From Actinomycetales bacterium (GTDB taxonomy: Bacteria > Actinomycetota > Actinomycetes > Actinomycetales > JAHECE01), in NCBI GenBank assembly GCA_029975645.1, contig JARKOU010000274.1, positions 1 through 38,270 on the forward strand: a stretch of DNA of 38,270 bases. The letters are read 5' to 3'. The translations under genes were made by a program, and so were the position numbers. Under the pieces are notes generated by a model, which ran no database searches, was not told the DNA's origin, and saw nothing but the letters and a program-made list of their open reading frames with translations. This document shows positions 8,509-17,617 of this stretch, piece by piece; position 1 is the stretch's first letter; the number at the start of each line of letters is the position of its first letter.

Positions 8509-10230
8509 ATGGGGGAGTTTCAGGTGCGTCCCGGAGTGGTCCGGCCCCGGCCCGTGATCGTTCTCCTGTGCCAGAACGACGCCGCCCGCGAGGGACTGGT
8601 CACGGCAGTCGCCGATCGCTACGAGCCCGACTACCGGTGCCTCTTCCCGAGGACCGTCGAGGAGTACGAGGCCGACCTCCGGGCGCTCGCCGACGAGCAC
8701 GCTGCGGTCGCCCTCGTCATCGTGGCGCTCGGCCAGGGCGACGAGCACGGCGTCTCGCTCGCGGCCGCGGCCCGGGCACTCCACCCGCGGGCGCGGCGAG
8801 CGGTCGCGGTCGCGTGGGGCGACTTCGCCTACTTCCGGGAGATGTTCGAATCCGTCACCACCGGGGCGGTGGACTTCACGGTGATCCGTCCGCGGCACGA
8901 ACGCGACGAGGACTTCCACGGAGCGCTCACCGACGCTCTCCACGAGTGGTCCGCGGGAGACCCGGGCGACTTCGAAGCCGTCAGGATCATCGGTGAGCGG
9001 TGGTCGGCCCGCACCTCGTGGTTGCGGGACCGTCTCGCCCGGTTCGACGTCCCGTACGGCTTCTACGACGTCCACGCCGACGAGGGGCGCGCCGAGTTGG
9101 CAGCGCTCGGCCTCGAGGACCCCGCCCTGCCCGTCGTCGTCATCCGCGTCACCCCGGAGCCGACGGTGCTCATCGACCCTTCGAACCTCCAGATCGCCGG
9201 CCTCTTCGGGCCCGCGGCGAACTACGACCCGAGTCTGGACTACGACCTCGCCGTCGTCGGCGCCGGCCCGGCCGGTCTGGCGGCAGCCGTGTACGCGACG
9301 TCGGAGGGGCTGCGCACCCTCCTCGTGGAGCACGAGGCCGTGGGCGGGCAAGCCGGCACCAGTTCCCGGATCCGCAACTACCCGGGCTTCCCCAAGGGGA
9401 TCAGCGGTGGCCGCTTCGCGGCCCGCACCTTTGAACAGGCCTTCTCGTTCGGGACTCAGTTCGCCTTCACGCGTTCGGCGTGCTCGCTGCGACCCGGGCA
9501 AGACGGGCGCCGGCACGAGATCGACCTCTCCGACGGGACGACGATCCCCGTCCGATCGGTGGTCATCGCGAGCGGCATGCACTACCGGCGCCTGGGTATC
9601 CCGTCACTCGAGGACCTCGTGGGCTGCGGGGTGTTCTACGGCGCGGCAAACACGGAGGCGCCGGCCATGGCGGGAGGCCGGGTGTTCGTGGTGGGTGGCG
9701 GGAACAGCGCCGGGCAAGCGGCACTCTTCCTCGCCCGCTTCGCCGCTGAGGTCACGGTCCTGGTGCGCGGGCCGAACGTCGCGGCAAGCATGTCCGACTA
9801 CCTCGTCCGGGAACTCGGTGCGTCGCCCAACGTCACCATCAGGCACCACGCGGAGGTAATCGGCGGCGGCGGGGCGAAGGGCCTCCTGGACCACGTGGTG
9901 ATCGCCGATCGGGTGACGGGCGAGCGGGAGACGCTCCCCGCCAACGGCCTGTTCGTCCTGATCGGCTCCGAGCCCCACACCGACTGGCTGGGCGACGCCG
10001 TCGAGCGGGATCGCTGGGGCTTCGTGGTGACCGGACCGGACCTGCGGCCGGAGCCCGGTGCCCGGACCCCCCTCCCCCTCGAGACGAGCGTCCCGGGGAT
10101 CTTCGCCGTCGGCGACGTCCGGCACGGATCGGTCAAGCGCGTGGCGACCGCAGTCGGGGAGGGAGCGGTCGCCATCTCCTACGTCCATCGCTGGATCGAG
10201 GAGCAGCGGGCCTCGGAGTCGGCGTCATAG
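8509..10230 (+). CDS. Pseudo-receiver/glutaredoxin-like/TrxR-like fusion lacking CxxC
   Basis: This 573-aa protein has three parts. Residues ~14-135 resemble a response-regulator receiver, but the usual phospho-Asp position after beta-3 (VIVAL, A73) is not Asp. Residues ~155-225 look like a glutaredoxin fold without cysteines (RWSARTSWLRD). Residues ~243-565 are a thioredoxin-reductase-type FAD/NAD(P)H flavoprotein with GAGPAG and GGGNSAG nucleotide motifs and a terminal GDVRHGSVKRV FAD block. The redox CxxC expected after GVFY (about 378-381) is replaced by G-A-A-N. It matches the known architecture called fused response regulator/thioredoxin-disulfide reductase. Without cysteines it probably passes electrons directly from FAD to an unknown acceptor. 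It directly follows the NhaA-DsbA fusion. Confidence 0.85.
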   Translation: MGEFQVRPGVVRPRPVIVLLCQNDAAREGLVTAVADRYEPDYRCLFPRTVEEYEADLRALADEHAAVALVIVALGQGDEHGVSLAAAARALHPRARRAVAVAWGDFAYFREMFESVTTGAVDFTVIRPRHERDEDFHGALTDALHEWSAGDPGDFEAVRIIGERWSARTSWLRDRLARFDVPYGFYDVHADEGRAELAALGLEDPALPVVVIRVTPEPTVLIDPSNLQIAGLFGPAANYDPSLDYDLAVVGAGPAGLAAAVYATSEGLRTLLVEHEAVGGQAGTSSRIRNYPGFPKGISGGRFAARTFEQAFSFGTQFAFTRSACSLRPGQDGRRHEIDLSDGTTIPVRSVVIASGMHYRRLGIPSLEDLVGCGVFYGAANTEAPAMAGGRVFVVGGGNSAGQAALFLARFAAEVTVLVRGPNVAASMSDYLVRELGASPNVTIRHHAEVIGGGGAKGLLDHVVIADRVTGERETLPANGLFVLIGSEPHTDWLGDAVERDRWGFVVTGPDLRPEPGARTPLPLETSVPGIFAVGDVRHGSVKRVATAVGEGAVAISYVHRWIEEQRASESAS

Positions 10231-12885: not shown

Positions 12886-13338
12886 GTGTACCGATTCCTG
12901 GTCTTGCTCCACATCGTGTGCGCGGCTGTCTGGGTGGGGGGCGCGGTGGCCGTCCAGATCCTGGCGATCCGCGTCGAACGCTCCGATGACCCGACGGACC
13001 TTCCACGCCTGGCCCGACACGTCGAGGCACTCGGAAACGTGGCCTTCATCCCCGCGGCGAGCGTGCTCCTCCTCACCGGTGTGGTGATGACGGCCCAGGC
13101 CTGGGCCTTCGACCAGGCGTGGATCCTCGTCGCGATCCTTCTCTGGCTGGTCTCGGCCGTCGCCGGCGCCGTCTACCTCGCTCCCCGTGCGAAGCGAGTG
13201 GTCGCACTGTTCGAGGCCGAGGGGCCGACGTCGGGGGCAGCACGGCGACTCATCTCGCGGCTCTTCGTGGTCTCTCGCGTCGAACTGCTCAGCTTCGCCG
13301 TGATCATCGTGCTGATGGTCTACAAGCCCGGAGCCTGA
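12886..13338 (+). CDS. DUF2269-type integral membrane protein
   Basis: This 150-aa protein has four transmembrane helices and starts VYRFLVLLHIVCAAVWVGG, a His- and Trp-containing first helix typical of DUF2269 and related predicted membrane proteins. The frame is open further upstream (to 12445). The GTG at 12886 was chosen because it begins right before the first helix and follows AAGGGGGG. A TACGCT -10-like box lies at 12854-12859. Function unknown. Confidence 0.75.
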   Translation: MYRFLVLLHIVCAAVWVGGAVAVQILAIRVERSDDPTDLPRLARHVEALGNVAFIPAASVLLLTGVVMTAQAWAFDQAWILVAILLWLVSAVAGAVYLAPRAKRVVALFEAEGPTSGAARRLISRLFVVSRVELLSFAVIIVLMVYKPGA

Positions 13339-13402: not shown

Positions 13403-13882
13403 TCAGCGGGTCAGTCCCAGCGCCCCTGCGATGGCGTGTCCGCCGGCGGCGTCGGGTGGCCCGGCCACGCGAGCAGGCATCATCCCGTCCCGTCGAACGA
13501 CCATCGCGGTGACCGTCGCCTGCGTGTCGATGCCGGTCGCGCGGCAGAACGCGGCCACGTCGGTGTAGGCCGTGAAGGTGCGCGCCAGGACGACCGGCAC
13601 CCGGATGCCGGCGGCCATTGCGCCGTCGATGAAGCCCCGCGCGGGGCGGTAGCGACGTCCCAGCAAAGGGAGTTCGATCACGGTCGAGGTCGCGTTCGGG
13701 TCCAGGCCCAGGGGCGACGGCGCCACCCCCGCGTCGACCGCCCATTCGATCCACTCGTCCACGAGTCGCTGCTGCCCCTGCAGGAAGGCGCAGACCACCA
13801 GCGTCAGCGGAGCCGGGAGGTCGCGCGGAAGGACCACATCGTCGCCGGCCAACGACCGGACGGGAAGTTCAGGGAAGCGCAT
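13403..13882 (-). CDS. Thioredoxin-fold-like hypothetical protein
   Basis: This 159-aa product has an N-terminal PELPVRSLAGDDVVLPRDL segment and a LTLVVCAFLQGQQRLVDEWI strand-helix. Together they resemble peroxiredoxin/TlpA- or ATP10-like folds. The middle YTDVAAFCRATGI and the following TVTAMVVRRDG fit the same idea, but no CxxC is present. The ATG at 13882 is preferred over 13933 because GGAGGGG lies 8 nt upstream of it, whereas the longer start has no usable ribosome-binding site. It lies 82 nt downstream of the anti-sigma gene on the same strand. Function unknown; the fold assignment is tentative. Confidence 0.6.
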   Translation of the reverse strand: MRFPELPVRSLAGDDVVLPRDLPAPLTLVVCAFLQGQQRLVDEWIEWAVDAGVAPSPLGLDPNATSTVIELPLLGRRYRPARGFIDGAMAAGIRVPVVLARTFTAYTDVAAFCRATGIDTQATVTAMVVRRDGMMPARVAGPPDAAGGHAIAGALGLTR

Positions 13883-13964
13883 CCGAACGGCCCCTCCAGC
13901 GCTGTCCTGGTGGCGATCGGACTCCTCGGTCATCTCCAGATCATCTCGCGATGCCTCGCAGGTC

Positions 13965-14645
13965 TCAGACGGTCGCCGTGGCCCACGGGTCCCCGGTGTC
14001 GGTCACCATCTCCACCGTGACCACCTGGGCGTCGTCGGGCTGCGTGATGACCCAGGTCCCGCCGCCGACGTCGTCGAGCGCCCAGGATCCTGCCGGCTCG
14101 CGGGTGCCGTCGGCGAGGACGAGGTGGCAGGCGTAGGACGCGCCGGCCTCGCCGTCGGTCACCGTGACGACCAGGACGGGTTGCCCGTCGTGACGGCTCT
14201 CTTGCACGCTTCCCACCGCAGCACCCTCGGAGGTGAGGAGCGGGGTGCCGGCAGCGACGAGCACCCCTTCGGCCTGGCCCCGGTCCTGCAGGACGGCGAC
14301 GGAGCCGGCGGCGCCCACGACCAGCCCGACGGCCACGGCCGCCGCGACAGCGAACGCGACGCGGTGCCGCCCACCCCGGGCCAACCGCCGCCGGAATCCG
14401 GTTAACGGGCCTGCGCGCTCCATGATGCCCATCGCGGTCAGCGCGGACTGCGAGAAGCCGGCGGGTGGGTCGACGTGCGGGGCAGCGGCCAGTACCTGGT
14501 CGACGGCGTCGGCGATCGAGGCGTACTCGGCGCGGCACAGCGCGCACTCCGCGAGGTGGCGGGTGAGGTCGTCACGCCGGCGCTCGTCGACGTCGGACAG
14601 CGCGAGATCGAGCAGGACCTCCTCGTCGGGGTGCCGGTCAGTCAT
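13965..14645 (-). CDS. RskA-like zinc-finger anti-sigma factor
   Basis: This 226-aa protein has an N-terminal anti-sigma zinc-finger (ZAS) domain with H30-x3-C34-x2-C37 (HLAECALC). One transmembrane helix follows at about 96-118, then an extracytoplasmic RskA-type domain containing GTPLLTSEGAAVGSV-like beta strands. It should hold its partner sigma factor at the membrane and release it after proteolysis. Its ATG overlaps the sigma-factor stop by 8 nt (ATGACTGA), the usual arrangement for a cognate pair. The signal sensed is unknown; the divergent redox genes suggest an oxidative or copper-related cue (inference). Confidence 0.88.
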   Translation of the reverse strand: MTDRHPDEEVLLDLALSDVDERRRDDLTRHLAECALCRAEYASIADAVDQVLAAAPHVDPPAGFSQSALTAMGIMERAGPLTGFRRRLARGGRHRVAFAVAAAVAVGLVVGAAGSVAVLQDRGQAEGVLVAAGTPLLTSEGAAVGSVQESRHDGQPVLVVTVTDGEAGASYACHLVLADGTREPAGSWALDDVGGGTWVITQPDDAQVVTVEMVTDTGDPWATATV

Positions 14646-15213
14646 GGTCGGCCTCCATCGCGGCGCGCACGCGGCGCAGCCCGGTCCTGATCCTCGTCTT
14701 GGCGGTCCCCAGCGGGATTCCCTCCACGGCGCTCACCTCCGCGGCCGTCCTCCCCCCGATCACTGCCAGCACCACCGCGCGCGCCTGCTCGGGGGGTAGA
14801 GCGCGGAGGCGGGCGACGGCAGCGTCTCTCTGCGAATGGCGCACAACCTCGTCCGCCGGATCGGTCACCTGCGACGTCGCCGTGATCATCTCCTCCAGGA
14901 GGGCGCCATCGGCCGGTATGGCCCGGCGGGACCGGACCGCATCGATTGCGGCGTTGCGCGTGATGGTCAGCAGCCAGGTCAGCACCGAGGCCCGGCGGGG
15001 GTCGTATGTTCCGGCTGCGCGCCACGCCCGGACGAACACCTCTTGGCTGACGTCCTGCGCCAGGCCGGCGTCGTGCGTGATCGAGACCGCGAGGCCGAAA
15101 ACGGGCCCTTGGAACCGGCGCACGAACGCCGTCGCCGCAGCCTCGTCGTTGACCGCCAGGCCTGCGGCGAGCGCGGCGTCGCTCGCCCGATCGGCGCCCG
15201 AGAAGAGGCTCAC
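14638..15213 (-). CDS. ECF RNA polymerase sigma factor (SigK/ECF19-like)
   Basis: The protein has both ECF regions: region 2 (VSQEVFVRAWRAAGTYDPRR and the following WLLTITRNAAIDAVR) and region 4 (LRALPPEQARAVVLAV, then GIPLGTAKTRIRTGLRRVR). Pairing with an RskA-type anti-sigma suggests the SigK-like group. The start is uncertain. GTG at 15213 gives 191 aa, normal for the family; a GTG at 15312 would add 33 residues of low-complexity sequence, and neither has a strong ribosome-binding site. It is divergent from the cupredoxin operon, which is a likely target along with its own promoter. Confidence 0.85.
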   Translation of the reverse strand: MSLFSGADRASDAALAAGLAVNDEAAATAFVRRFQGPVFGLAVSITHDAGLAQDVSQEVFVRAWRAAGTYDPRRASVLTWLLTITRNAAIDAVRSRRAIPADGALLEEMITATSQVTDPADEVVRHSQRDAAVARLRALPPEQARAVVLAVIGGRTAAEVSAVEGIPLGTAKTRIRTGLRRVRAAMEADHD

Positions 15214-15367
15214 ATCGTGTTCTACGTCCAGCGGCCCGTCCGCGATTGCGGATCCGTGCGCGGAATTCGAGCCCGCGGACGGCAATCCCTGCGCCGTGCT
15301 GCGCCGTATCACCGATGACGGTCGCCCCGCCCGGGCCGACCGACGAGCATCGGCTCCTGGAGGAACC

Positions 15368-15742
15368 ATGAAGGCACCATCTCGCTTCTGGGCGCTGACG
15401 GCGAGCCTCATTCTGGCCTGCACCCTCACCGCATGCGGCGGCGGGAGCACGTCATCCTCCGACGGCGGTACGGCGGGTGACGTCAGCACGTCGTCGGGCA
15501 CGGGTGTCACCATCACGGACTTCGCCTTCAGCCCCGCGACGCTCACCGTTGCCGTCGGGGACACGGTGACGTGGACGAACCAGGACACCGCGGCGCACAC
15601 GGTGACGGCCGACGACGGCACCTTCGACTCCGGCCGCCTCGCCACGGGCGAGACCTTCACCGAGACCTTCGACACCGCCGGCACCTACGCCTATCACTGC
15701 ACGATGCACCCCGGCATGGTCGCCGAGATCGTCGTTGAGTAG
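15368..15742 (+). CDS. Plastocyanin-like copper lipoprotein
   Basis: This 124-aa protein has a signal peptide ending in the lipobox LTAC (C23), then a single cupredoxin domain. All four type-1 copper ligands are present: H77 (AAHTVT), C111, H114 and M117 (HCTMHPGM). It should be a membrane-anchored one-electron carrier outside the cell membrane. The ATG has GGAGG about 5 nt upstream. It is the first gene of a run with a flavoprotein reductase and a DUF6529 membrane protein and is divergent from an ECF sigma/anti-sigma pair, suggesting a regulated electron-transfer module. Confidence 0.88.
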   Translation: MKAPSRFWALTASLILACTLTACGGGSTSSSDGGTAGDVSTSSGTGVTITDFAFSPATLTVAVGDTVTWTNQDTAAHTVTADDGTFDSGRLATGETFTETFDTAGTYAYHCTMHPGMVAEIVVE

Positions 15743-15784
15743 TCGGCTGCAGGTCCCCGCCAACAGGCAGGAGGGCGAACAGAC

Positions 15785-17011
15785 ATGGTGAGGACGTCGG
15801 GAATCGTGATCGTGGGCGCCGGCCTGGCCGGCGCGAAGGCAGCCGAGACGCTCCGGGACCAAGGCTTCGAGGGGCGCGTGACGCTCATCGGCGACGAGCG
15901 ACACCGTCCCTACGAGCGGCCACCCCTGTCCAAGGGCTATCTGCAGGGAACGGCCGAGCAGGAGAGCGTGTTCGTGCATCCAGCGTCCTGGTACGGCACG
16001 AACGCCATCGACTTGCGGCTCGACGTCAGGGCGAAGGCGGTCCACGCCTCCGCCCACGAGGTGATCCTGGCCGACGGCGAGCGACTCGCGTACGACGCGT
16101 TGATTCTGGCGACCGGCTCGTCGCCGCGACGCCTGAGCGTGCCGGGAGCGGACCGCGCCGGCGTCCACTACCTGCGCCGCCTGGACGACTCCGACAGATT
16201 GCGGGCCTCGTTCGCCCGGGCCGGTCGGGTCGCCGTGATCGGCGGTGGGTGGATCGGTCTGGAGGTCGCCGCAGCCGCCCGGACTGCGGGCCTCGCAGTG
16301 ACCATCCTCGAGCTGGAGCAGCTACCCCTGCTGCGGGTCCTTGGGCCGAGGGTGGCCCAGGTCTTCGCCGACCTGCACCGCGACCACGGCGTCGACCTGC
16401 GGTGCGAGGTCCGGGTCGAGGGGATCCTCGCAGACGCGGAGTCCGTCCGTGGGGTCGAGCTCGGAACCGGCGAGGTGGTCGACGCCGACCTCGTGGTCGT
16501 GGGAGTCGGGATCACCCCCAACACGGCCCTGGCCGACGGCGCGGGCCTCGACGTCGCCAACGGCATCCGCGTCGATGAGCATCTACGCACCTCCGACCCG
16601 GACATCTACGCCGCGGGCGACGTCGCCAATGCCTACCACCCTCTCCTCGGTCGGCACCTGCGCGTGGAGCACTGGGCGAACGCCCTGCACCAAGGCCCGG
16701 TCGCGGCCCGCGCGATGCTCGGCCAGGACGCGGTCTACGACCGGCTCCCGTACTTCTACACGGACCAGTACGACCTCGGCATGGAGTACACCGGCCACGC
16801 CGAGCCCGGCTCCTACGATCGCGTCGTCACACGCGGTGACATCGCAGGCCGAGAGTTCCTCGCGTTCTGGCTCGACCACGACCGCGTCCTGGCCGGAATG
16901 AGCGTGAACATCTGGGACGTCACTGCGGACATCGCGGACCTGGTCCGCTCCGGCCGCCCGGTCCAACCGGACGCCCTGGCCGACCACGATGTGCCGCTCA
17001 CCGAGCTCTGA
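15785..17011 (+). CDS. Ferredoxin-reductase-type FAD/NAD(P) oxidoreductase
   Basis: This 408-aa flavoprotein has an N-terminal FAD Rossmann motif (VIVGAGLAGAKAAETL), the RPYERPPLSKGYL block typical of ferredoxin/rubredoxin reductases, an NAD(P) motif (IGGGWIGLEVA, near 155) and the DIYAAGDVANAY FAD-binding segment. A C-terminal reductase domain (about 325-405) completes the family. It should move electrons from NAD(P)H via FAD to a small redox protein. No ferredoxin gene is adjacent; the neighbours are a cupredoxin lipoprotein and a polytopic membrane protein. The ATG follows AGGAGGG about 9 nt upstream. Confidence 0.88.
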   Translation: MVRTSGIVIVGAGLAGAKAAETLRDQGFEGRVTLIGDERHRPYERPPLSKGYLQGTAEQESVFVHPASWYGTNAIDLRLDVRAKAVHASAHEVILADGERLAYDALILATGSSPRRLSVPGADRAGVHYLRRLDDSDRLRASFARAGRVAVIGGGWIGLEVAAAARTAGLAVTILELEQLPLLRVLGPRVAQVFADLHRDHGVDLRCEVRVEGILADAESVRGVELGTGEVVDADLVVVGVGITPNTALADGAGLDVANGIRVDEHLRTSDPDIYAAGDVANAYHPLLGRHLRVEHWANALHQGPVAARAMLGQDAVYDRLPYFYTDQYDLGMEYTGHAEPGSYDRVVTRGDIAGREFLAFWLDHDRVLAGMSVNIWDVTADIADLVRSGRPVQPDALADHDVPLTEL

Positions 17012-17032
17012 CCGACGACGGGCATCACGACC

Positions 17033-17617
17033 ATGACCACCGAAAGCGGGTTCACGGGCCGACCGACATCGGCCCCGCAGCCCGGCCGCGGTGCACGCTC
17101 GCTCGTCACGTTCGCCCTGGTCGGCGCAGCGGTCTCAGTGAGCCTCGGTACGTACGCCAAGGTCCACGCTCCCACCGGGAGAACCCTGACGACCCTCGGC
17201 TTCCCCGCCGCGCTCGACATGAAGGCCTGGCTCACCACCGCGGCCCTCGCTCTGGCCGTAGTCCAGGTCCTGACGGCCGCCCGGATGTATGAACGCATCG
17301 GGCACGGACCGAGCCCGCGGTGGGTGAGCCTGACCCACCGGACCTCCGGCGTCACAGCCGTTCTCCTCACGCTCCCGGTCGCGCTCCACTGCGCCTGGTC
17401 CCTCGGCTTCGCCACCTACACCCCGCGCGTGGTCGCCCACAGCATCCTCGGATGCCTCTTCTACGGCGTCTTCGTCACCAAGATGCTGACCCTGCGCAGC
17501 CGTCGTGTCCCCGCATGGGCACTCCCCTGGCTCGGCGGAACCCTCGCGACCGTCCTCCTCGCCCTCTGGCTCACCTCCTCGTTCTGGTACTTCGCGCACC
17601 ACGCGATCCGTTACTGA
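17033..17617 (+). CDS. DUF6529-family membrane protein
   Basis: This 194-aa protein has about five membrane helices and matches my recollection of DUF6529. Features are the segment SLGTYAKVHAPTGRTL, KAWLTTAALALAVVQVLTA, and histidines in conserved membrane positions (THRTSG, ALHCAWSLG, VAHSILG, AHHAIRY). Paired membrane histidines recall cytochrome b561-like haem proteins, but haem binding is inference. It follows the flavoprotein by about 20 nt and is probably in the same operon. It could link the cytoplasmic reductase to the extracytoplasmic cupredoxin. The ribosome-binding site is weak, so translation may be coupled. Confidence 0.78.
   Translation: MTTESGFTGRPTSAPQPGRGARSLVTFALVGAAVSVSLGTYAKVHAPTGRTLTTLGFPAALDMKAWLTTAALALAVVQVLTAARMYERIGHGPSPRWVSLTHRTSGVTAVLLTLPVALHCAWSLGFATYTPRVVAHSILGCLFYGVFVTKMLTLRSRRVPAWALPWLGGTLATVLLALWLTSSFWYFAHHAIRY

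Follow-up and report, generated by a model that had tools for sequence, protein, structure and literature searches.

Described systems related to the DUF6529 cassette

Several described systems share parts with a five-gene cassette in a contig of an Actinomycetales bacterium (JARKOU010000274.1 of assembly GCA_029975645.1; we refer to the whole stretch of 38,270 bases analysed as the window). In this cassette, genes for an extracytoplasmic function (ECF) sigma factor and an anti-sigma factor are divergent from genes for a cupredoxin lipoprotein, a flavoprotein and a membrane protein of the family DUF6529 (PF20139). A promoter-like motif is shared by the two arms, and DUF6529 is recurrently paired with exported electron carriers in other genomes. 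The proposal that this is an autoregulated ECF-sigma/anti-sigma cassette making a transmembrane electron-transfer chain is, in our estimate, evenly balanced between right and wrong.

In the MsrPQ system, a flavin reductase passes electrons to the haem membrane protein MsrQ and from there to periplasmic MsrP. The layout that we propose (cytosolic flavoprotein, membrane carrier, exported partner) would be the same, but the window DUF6529 protein has neither a Ferric_reduct domain nor profile similarity to Ferric_reduct, and the exported partner here is a copper protein. The same general build, a multi-helix membrane bundle with conserved histidines, is seen in cytochrome b561, STEAP and hydrogenase-type cytochrome b proteins, some of which appear in the list of weak structural matches given below, although DUF6529 has no significant sequence, profile or fold match to them. 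The window flavoprotein belongs with putidaredoxin reductase and BphA4 by its domains and its length; in contrast to such a reductase with its ferredoxin, no ferredoxin is encoded by the window genes that were scanned (most of 8.5–25.9 kb).

The regulatory part has two counterparts. According to PMC3511301, the operon of the sulfite-activated Sinorhizobium meliloti sigma factor RpoE1 starts with a gene for a secreted 'lipoprotein 15', and operons of this kind in distant bacteria are reported often to contain a homologue of it; the related factor RpoE4 controls sulfite dehydrogenase along with a cytochrome c and a pseudoazurin, the last of which may take electrons from the dehydrogenase. The RpoE1/RpoE4 (ECF26) circuits resemble the window cassette in bringing together an ECF sigma factor, an anti-sigma factor, a 'lipoprotein 15' protein and a blue copper protein, and they differ in that the window has DUF6529 and the flavoprotein and, among the genes scanned, no sulfite dehydrogenase. 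Because those sulfite circuits contain it, the association of ECF sigma, anti-sigma, PF03640 and blue copper is a known combination, and it is DUF6529 with the flavoprotein that forms the new part. The second counterpart is SigK/RskA (ECF18/ECF19), in which the sigma factor also adjoins a membrane anti-sigma factor, and SigK is the best NCBIfam model for the window sigma (129 bits), albeit under the cut-off of 226; SigK's conserved cysteine pair is given for 94% of ECF18 and 56% of ECF19 members (PMC7509140). The window sigma has no cysteine at all, and the cysteine model described there therefore does not carry over; the window anti-sigma also lacks a detectable RskA_C domain. A literature search, in sources available in part, returned no SigK promoter consensus.

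Organization of the cassette

The features of the locus are as follows.

13965..14645, minus strand: anti-sigma factor gene, with an H30-x3-C34-x2-C37 motif and one transmembrane stretch by eye
14638..15213, minus strand: ECF sigma factor gene (Pfam Sigma70_r2, 1.1e-19; Sigma70_r4_2, 1.3e-8)
15223..15248, minus strand: promoter-like CAATC-N17-CGTA element directed at the sigma gene, with 9 bp between its CGTA box and the GTG
15283..15308, plus strand: promoter-like CAATC-N17-CGTA element directed at the cupredoxin operon, whose ATG follows after 59 bp
15368..15742, plus strand: cupredoxin lipoprotein gene (PF00127, 9.5e-14), chimeric
15447..15461, no strand: junction of a missing segment of about 0.6 kb, from DNA alignment; the PF03640 domain is present in the sister locus
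15785..17011, plus strand: flavoprotein gene, FAD/NAD(P)H ferredoxin-reductase type (Pyr_redox_2, 4.5e-73; Reductase_C, 2.1e-14)
17033..17617, plus strand: DUF6529 gene (PF20139, 2.8e-65, 219.6 bits against a cut-off of 23.3, profile positions 3–169 of 171)
13403..13933, minus strand: longest ATG frame for a 176-aa protein, separated by 31 bp from the anti-sigma gene upstream of it

The initial annotation had described the rightward run as a cupredoxin lipoprotein with all four copper ligands, a ferredoxin-reductase-type flavoprotein and a histidine-rich DUF6529 membrane protein, and all three identifications hold. The cupredoxin has the lipobox LTAC with C23 and the full set of type-1 copper ligands (H77, C111, H114 and M117), and its best solved matches are the cupredoxin domain of copper nitrite reductase, plastocyanin and amicyanin. 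The flavoprotein has putidaredoxin reductase as its nearest solved structure (1q1r, 1e-83), carries both domains and the length of that group together with the motifs GAGLAG at 11 and GGGWIG at 153, and by eye has no signal peptide. The DUF6529 protein has 194 residues, of which seven are histidines, and the main group of its relatives retains four of these almost without exception. The three genes are separated by gaps of 42 bp (cupredoxin to flavoprotein) and 21 bp (flavoprotein to DUF6529), and the only terminator-like match between 13300 and 18300 (one, against 0.5 expected) lies inside the flavoprotein gene.

On the opposite strand, the start of the anti-sigma gene overlaps the stop of the sigma gene. 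The sigma factor has the ECF arrangement of regions 2 and 4 with no region-3 model among its matches, and its GTG start is placed identically in a same-genus genome. Zinc-motif (ZAS) anti-sigma factors are defined by H-x3-C-x2-C near the N-terminus, which is what H30, C34 and C37 provide here, and zinc binding is predicted. In NCBIfam the anti-sigma matches NF052375, 'anti-sigma factor' (6.5e-17, 62 bits), under its cut-off of 100; no Pfam family matches at E 0.01, and at E up to 10 only DUF3379 does (0.29), RskA_C being undetected at either threshold. The divergent ECF sigma/RskA pair of the initial annotation is thus a genuine sigma/anti-sigma pair to which the RskA label applies by resemblance only, and the anti-sigma gene falls just outside the interval 14638–17617 in which the module had been placed. 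The 176-aa protein encoded beyond it is possibly the product of a third gene of the sigma operon; it matches no Pfam family at E 0.01 and at E up to 10 only DUF7929 (0.2).

A promoter-like motif and a sister cassette

The motif CAATC-N17-CGTA was read off the sigma/cupredoxin intergenic region by comparison with the same-genus genome G301 (locus L183), and its presence at the sites from which it was derived is no test, although its rarity and its recurrence in the sister genome do count as one. There are several features to note. First, the motif occurs exactly twice in the window, against 0.02 occurrences expected from shuffles, and both copies are in this intergenic region on opposite strands. 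Second, the sister locus also has two copies, laid out as in the window. Third, the extended form GCAATC-N17-CGTA is found in the source assembly only at the two cassette sites (the backward control gave 0), and the operon site is its sole occurrence in G301. No further target of this extended form is present in the source assembly, which is 88.7% complete (looser sites were not sought), and the sigma regulon looks limited to one locus. With 9 bp between the CGTA box and the GTG start, the sigma mRNA may be leaderless. As judged from the sequence, the layout is that of an autoregulated ECF sigma factor driving a divergent operon, and this operon is very probably under the control of the window sigma.

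The sister locus has, in order, anti-sigma, sigma and then divergently a PF03640 lipoprotein, the cupredoxin and the flavoprotein, inside whose gene the contig stops. Four of the five window cassette genes are retained, at identities of 64% for the anti-sigma (129 residues compared, partial), 88% for the sigma, 81% for the cupredoxin and 77–78% for the flavoprotein. With the shared promoter-like motif, this supports one regulatory switch for the run, in line with the control that the initial annotation had suggested from the sigma/anti-sigma pair, and we regard the cassette and its regulation as well supported by the sequence. A DUF6529 gene past the contig end was sought and not found; the region matching the right flank of the window (C229) carries other genes.

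DNA alignment reveals that the window is without about 0.6 kb relative to G301. As a result the window cupredoxin gene is a chimera, the signal peptide of the PF03640 gene being joined in frame to the cupredoxin domain with frame and lipobox intact; either a genuine deletion or an error of assembly could account for the missing segment. Neither this chimera nor the promoter-like motif featured in the initial annotation. Elsewhere in the source assembly (88.7% complete), one search for PF03640 gave no match, although its positive control failed to register; in a second search 96 of 396 genomes contained the family, but this one, as before, did not.

The neighbourhood of DUF6529 in other genomes

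Of 296 genomes sampled from the class, 60 contain a match to DUF6529. The neighbourhood survey covers 134 loci, comprising the window, 54 loci from named genomes, 30 from the sampled-genome search and 49 larger stretches; from the sampled-genome search, 13 of 62 places were left out. L096 and L115 were dropped with other short loci, and L161 (ten bases) was also dropped. L164 and L165 duplicate L081 and L085, leaving 132 loci without repeats. A partner was required to lie within 700 bp of DUF6529 and on the same strand.

An exported redox carrier (a Rieske protein, cupredoxin or cytochrome c) adjoins DUF6529 in 87 of the 134 loci (85 of 132 without repeats), whereas such a neighbour is absent for all 198 control genes, which were taken from these loci at distances of 2.5 kb or more and tested identically. 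The partner is a Rieske protein in 77 loci (75 without repeats), a cupredoxin in eight and a cytochrome c in two; 24 have only a protein of cluster c1 (described below) and 23 have none, the last three counts being the same without repeats, as is that for cupredoxins. The window itself is counted among those with none since its flavoprotein separates the cupredoxin from DUF6529. A public plasmid record also annotates DUF6529 followed by a Rieske protein. When five partner labels are placed on a DUF6529 tree of 126 rows (L024, L047, L055, L156, L164, L165 and loci without a called gene left out, the window hand-labelled cupredoxin), there are 12 changes against 49.1 in shuffles, with at least three changes for the cupredoxin label on starred branches alone. 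The identity of the partner has therefore changed, but its type, an exported electron carrier, has not. The recurrence around DUF6529 is modular, and is not that of a five-gene block.

A match to the window flavoprotein is present in four loci, namely the window, L010 and L015 (both Geodermatophilus) and L158, and in each it is within 85 bp of DUF6529 on the same strand; that of L158 is weak (E 3e-4), to a reductase of another subfamily. In the two Geodermatophilus loci a 1036-aa protein with FHA, 2Fe-2S and flavoprotein parts is encoded directly downstream of DUF6529 (L015:6589-9699, L010:6618-9728); by eye, it also has seven transmembrane-like stretches and Cys-rich NosR/NapH-like segments. 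Only abutting flavoproteins are counted here as support for electron transfer; that flavoproteins are always tied to DUF6529 was rejected, 9 of 13 matches of a wider search lying elsewhere in the loci. The membrane electron transfer that the initial annotation had envisaged gains from the carriers adjoining DUF6529, set against their complete absence from the controls, and from the four abutting flavoproteins.

ECF sigma factors are also concentrated near DUF6529, with 15 profile matches within 2 kb (14 loci; 478 kb) against one farther away (582 kb; binomial 6e-5), a figure that is indicative given that the profile was built from near matches and the genomes are related. PF03640-like proteins are found in five loci, each within 700 bp of DUF6529 and on the same strand (the seeds coming from these loci and the sister locus), and the same search matched the window's chimeric cupredoxin gene. 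Outside the window and its sister, the closest layout is in a distant lineage: in L005, on a contig named Acidimicrobiales, an RskA_C anti-sigma and an ECF sigma are divergent from DUF6529, a cupredoxin and a PF03640 lipoprotein. Because the L005 sigma scores best on SigM and the window sigma on SigK, the pairing of DUF6529 with a sigma factor may have arisen more than once. RskA_C was found in L005, L119 and L125.

The DUF6529 protein

DUF6529 conserved residues, from alignment conservation: H45, K64, H102, H119, C120, R132, H136, K150

These residues come from 117 main-group and 14 divergent sequences (no gene was called in three of the 134 loci). H102, C120, R132, H136 and K150 are present in all 117 main-group members, H45 in 114 and H119 in 112; among the 14 divergent homologues H102 is present in 13, C120 in 14, H136 in 14 and K150 in 13. 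An AlphaFold2 model (pLDDT 85.2, pTM 0.74) has five long helices, and loop charges predict an inside N-terminus by the positive-inside rule. The model puts H102 and K150 close to where helices 3 and 4 end on the cytosolic side, and H119, C120, H136 and H45 near outer helix ends. These two conserved clusters, cytosolic and outer, would be the arrangement expected of a membrane-spanning carrier. Because only H102, C120, H136 and K150 stay near-universal when the divergent homologues are included, the two sites could use unusual ligands.

The sole Pfam match of the protein at E 0.01 is DUF6529 itself, with no Ferric_reduct domain. Homology to known haem-b families could not be established: sequence and fold searches gave no match above the noise of helical bundles, and profile comparisons were weak or null. 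From its neighbourhoods and its conservation, we conclude that DUF6529 is probably a membrane redox protein. Literature searches turned up no paper with the name 'DUF6529' or 'PF20139'.

A proposed route for electrons and its alternatives

We propose that the membrane-anchored zinc-motif anti-sigma would hold the sigma factor until envelope stress frees it, and that the freed sigma would transcribe its own gene and the divergent operon. NAD(P)H (NADH being more likely by family) would then reduce the cytosolic FAD flavoprotein, which would hand electrons to DUF6529. Possible ligand clusters are H102 with K150 on the cytosolic side and H119, C120 and H136 with H45 on the outer side, across which DUF6529 would carry electrons, probably on haem b, to the lipid-anchored cupredoxin; the latter would in turn reduce an acceptor in the envelope. 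In relatives the exported carrier is usually a Rieske protein and sometimes a cytochrome c. The NADH-to-copper route is the best single reading, drawn from one locus together with the flavoprotein neighbours in L010 and L015 and, weakly, L158, and we place its full direction slightly below an even chance. A more general reading is somewhat less likely: DUF6529 may be an unrecognised family of transmembrane electron conduits that connects cytosolic flavoproteins or quinol to exchangeable Rieske proteins, cupredoxins and cytochromes c, and that is wired in different lineages to ECF sigma factors, Ser/Thr kinases (through a c1 domain) or FHA proteins. Should DUF6529 be a transmembrane redox carrier, many exported actinobacterial Rieske proteins, cupredoxins and cytochromes would gain a membrane partner, and the apparent one-locus sigma regulon would offer a clean system for finding what the cassette senses and reduces.

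A number of observations weigh against electron transfer through DUF6529 and against the NADH-to-copper route in particular. The cupredoxin, flavoprotein, DUF6529 run is seen once and was detected in none of the other 133 loci, and conservation of the five-gene neighbourhood, the check that the initial annotation had proposed, failed to appear; the closest DUF6529 relatives (L002–L004, 59–63% identity) have no redox neighbour in the stretch covered. No DUF6529 was found in the sister genome (assembly 89% complete), beyond the contig end included. The 24 loci with only a c1 protein and the 23, window included, with no sought partner do not follow the pattern, and the loci are not independent, many coming from congeners. 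Six broader flavoprotein queries gave 13 matches, four of which abut DUF6529 and nine of which lie farther off (eight on the opposite strand; one of the nine is the window's own 8509–10230), so that flavoproteins are not restricted to the DUF6529 side. H119 is retained in only one of the 14 divergent homologues. A PDB search with the DUF6529 profile gives no chain at E up to 1, and the best Foldseek E-value for the model is 0.19, with 4o7g at 0.42; in favour, the weak top rows do contain, mixed with unrelated ones, hydrogenase-1 cytochrome b, cytochrome b561, STEAP2 and a designed di-haem bundle. The top VIA-align rows are generic helical bundles at Z ~10, within the stated noise for such folds, and cytochrome b6f, hydrogenase-1 cytochrome b and SpNOX (Z ~8.2, with 6g94 at 8.2) fall below these and are not counted. 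In hhalign comparisons DUF6529 reaches a weak 7% with Ni_hydr_CYTB (PF01292 set) and 0.4% with Ferric_reduct (PF01794 set), the latter at the level of six control families (0.1–0.4%). DUF4405 (PF14358), with few and marginal matches, was set aside from these comparisons.

Three other explanations account for parts of these data. Small carriers such as Rieske proteins, cupredoxins and cytochromes c usually accept electrons from quinol-oxidising complexes, and next to DUF6529 an exported partner is common while an abutting flavoprotein is rare, as would be expected if DUF6529 were a quinol-oxidising cytochrome-like protein that reduces the exported carrier and the flavoprotein served a separate cytosolic ferredoxin. 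The four abutting flavoproteins are nonetheless on DUF6529's own strand, and the flavoprotein is kept within the same cassette in the sister genome; we regard quinol as an unlikely source. Alternatively, DUF6529 might have no redox role and use its conserved His, Cys and Lys residues to bind or move a metal such as copper, or it might be a maturation factor for exported metalloproteins. Its recognised partners are indeed metalloproteins, and haem-b homology could not be demonstrated by sequence, fold or profile searches, but a flavoprotein would be an unexpected partner for a metal carrier and the conserved residues are modelled towards both membrane faces, and a role in metal handling seems improbable.

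Electrons might also flow inward, with an exported donor (sulfite oxidation, for example) reducing the cupredoxin and DUF6529 passing electrons into the cell. Putidaredoxin-reductase-type flavoproteins normally run from NAD(P)H to a carrier, which counts against this direction. A PF00174 (sulfite oxidase-type) molybdopterin protein is encoded 1.1 kb from DUF6529 in L158, but it is on the opposite strand and is the only one in the 134 loci (single-sequence search), so that the family is not a regular DUF6529 neighbour, and no PF00174 protein is present among the window genes scanned. The likeness to the S. meliloti sulfite response, in which a blue copper protein and a secreted protein of the PF03640 type likewise occur with an ECF sigma and an anti-sigma (PMC3511301), speaks for inward flow; we consider it quite improbable on balance. 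The outward NADH-to-copper route remains our preferred reading.

Other genes in the window and near DUF6529

Other potentially related genes are present in the source genome. A DUF2269 membrane protein is encoded at 12886–13338, upstream of the cassette, and the product of the gene at 8509–10230, about 7 kb from DUF6529, is 573 aa long and has a Pyr_redox_2 domain in its C-terminal part. Elsewhere in the assembly (G000:C12:14982-16196, L184) there is another flavoprotein gene, beside genes resembling an ABC transporter, whose product shares 64% identity with the window flavoprotein.

Cluster c1 is present in 55 loci (e.g. L054:5349-6005) and consists of a protein with an N-terminal hydrophobic stretch encoded directly upstream of DUF6529. 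Residues Y106, C108, D109, E114, W116, G119 and G146 are invariant in 34 aligned members, and the model has confidently predicted beta structure with no significant PDB match; a redox role for c1 was considered and set aside. In six Actinoplanes loci (cluster c23, e.g. L041:4271-5977) a c1-like region is joined to a Ser/Thr kinase that adjoins DUF6529, Pkinase being confirmed by Pfam in L041 only. FHA-domain proteins are encoded behind DUF6529 on the same strand in L067, L071, L073, L076–L081, L083–L085, L166 and L167; in all there are 18 FHA matches within 1.5 kb on the same strand (two from repeated places and two from L010 and L015) and four more on the opposite strand.

Several individual loci have further redox genes. 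In L020 and L042 (Pseudonocardia) an anti-sigma and a sigma factor are divergent from c1, DUF6529 and a Rieske protein, and the anti-sigma gene is followed by one for cytochrome bd oxidase subunit I (by Pfam in L020 and by membership of the same cluster in L042). The divergent DUF6529 homologues of L133, L142 and L146 are 0.4–1 kb from opposite-strand flavoproteins that by eye resemble FixC/ETF-QO. Finally, L159:202-3975 has genes for DUF6529, a Rieske protein, PF03640 and Mut7-C beside an opposite-strand NuoF-like protein and a 4Fe-4S ferredoxin.

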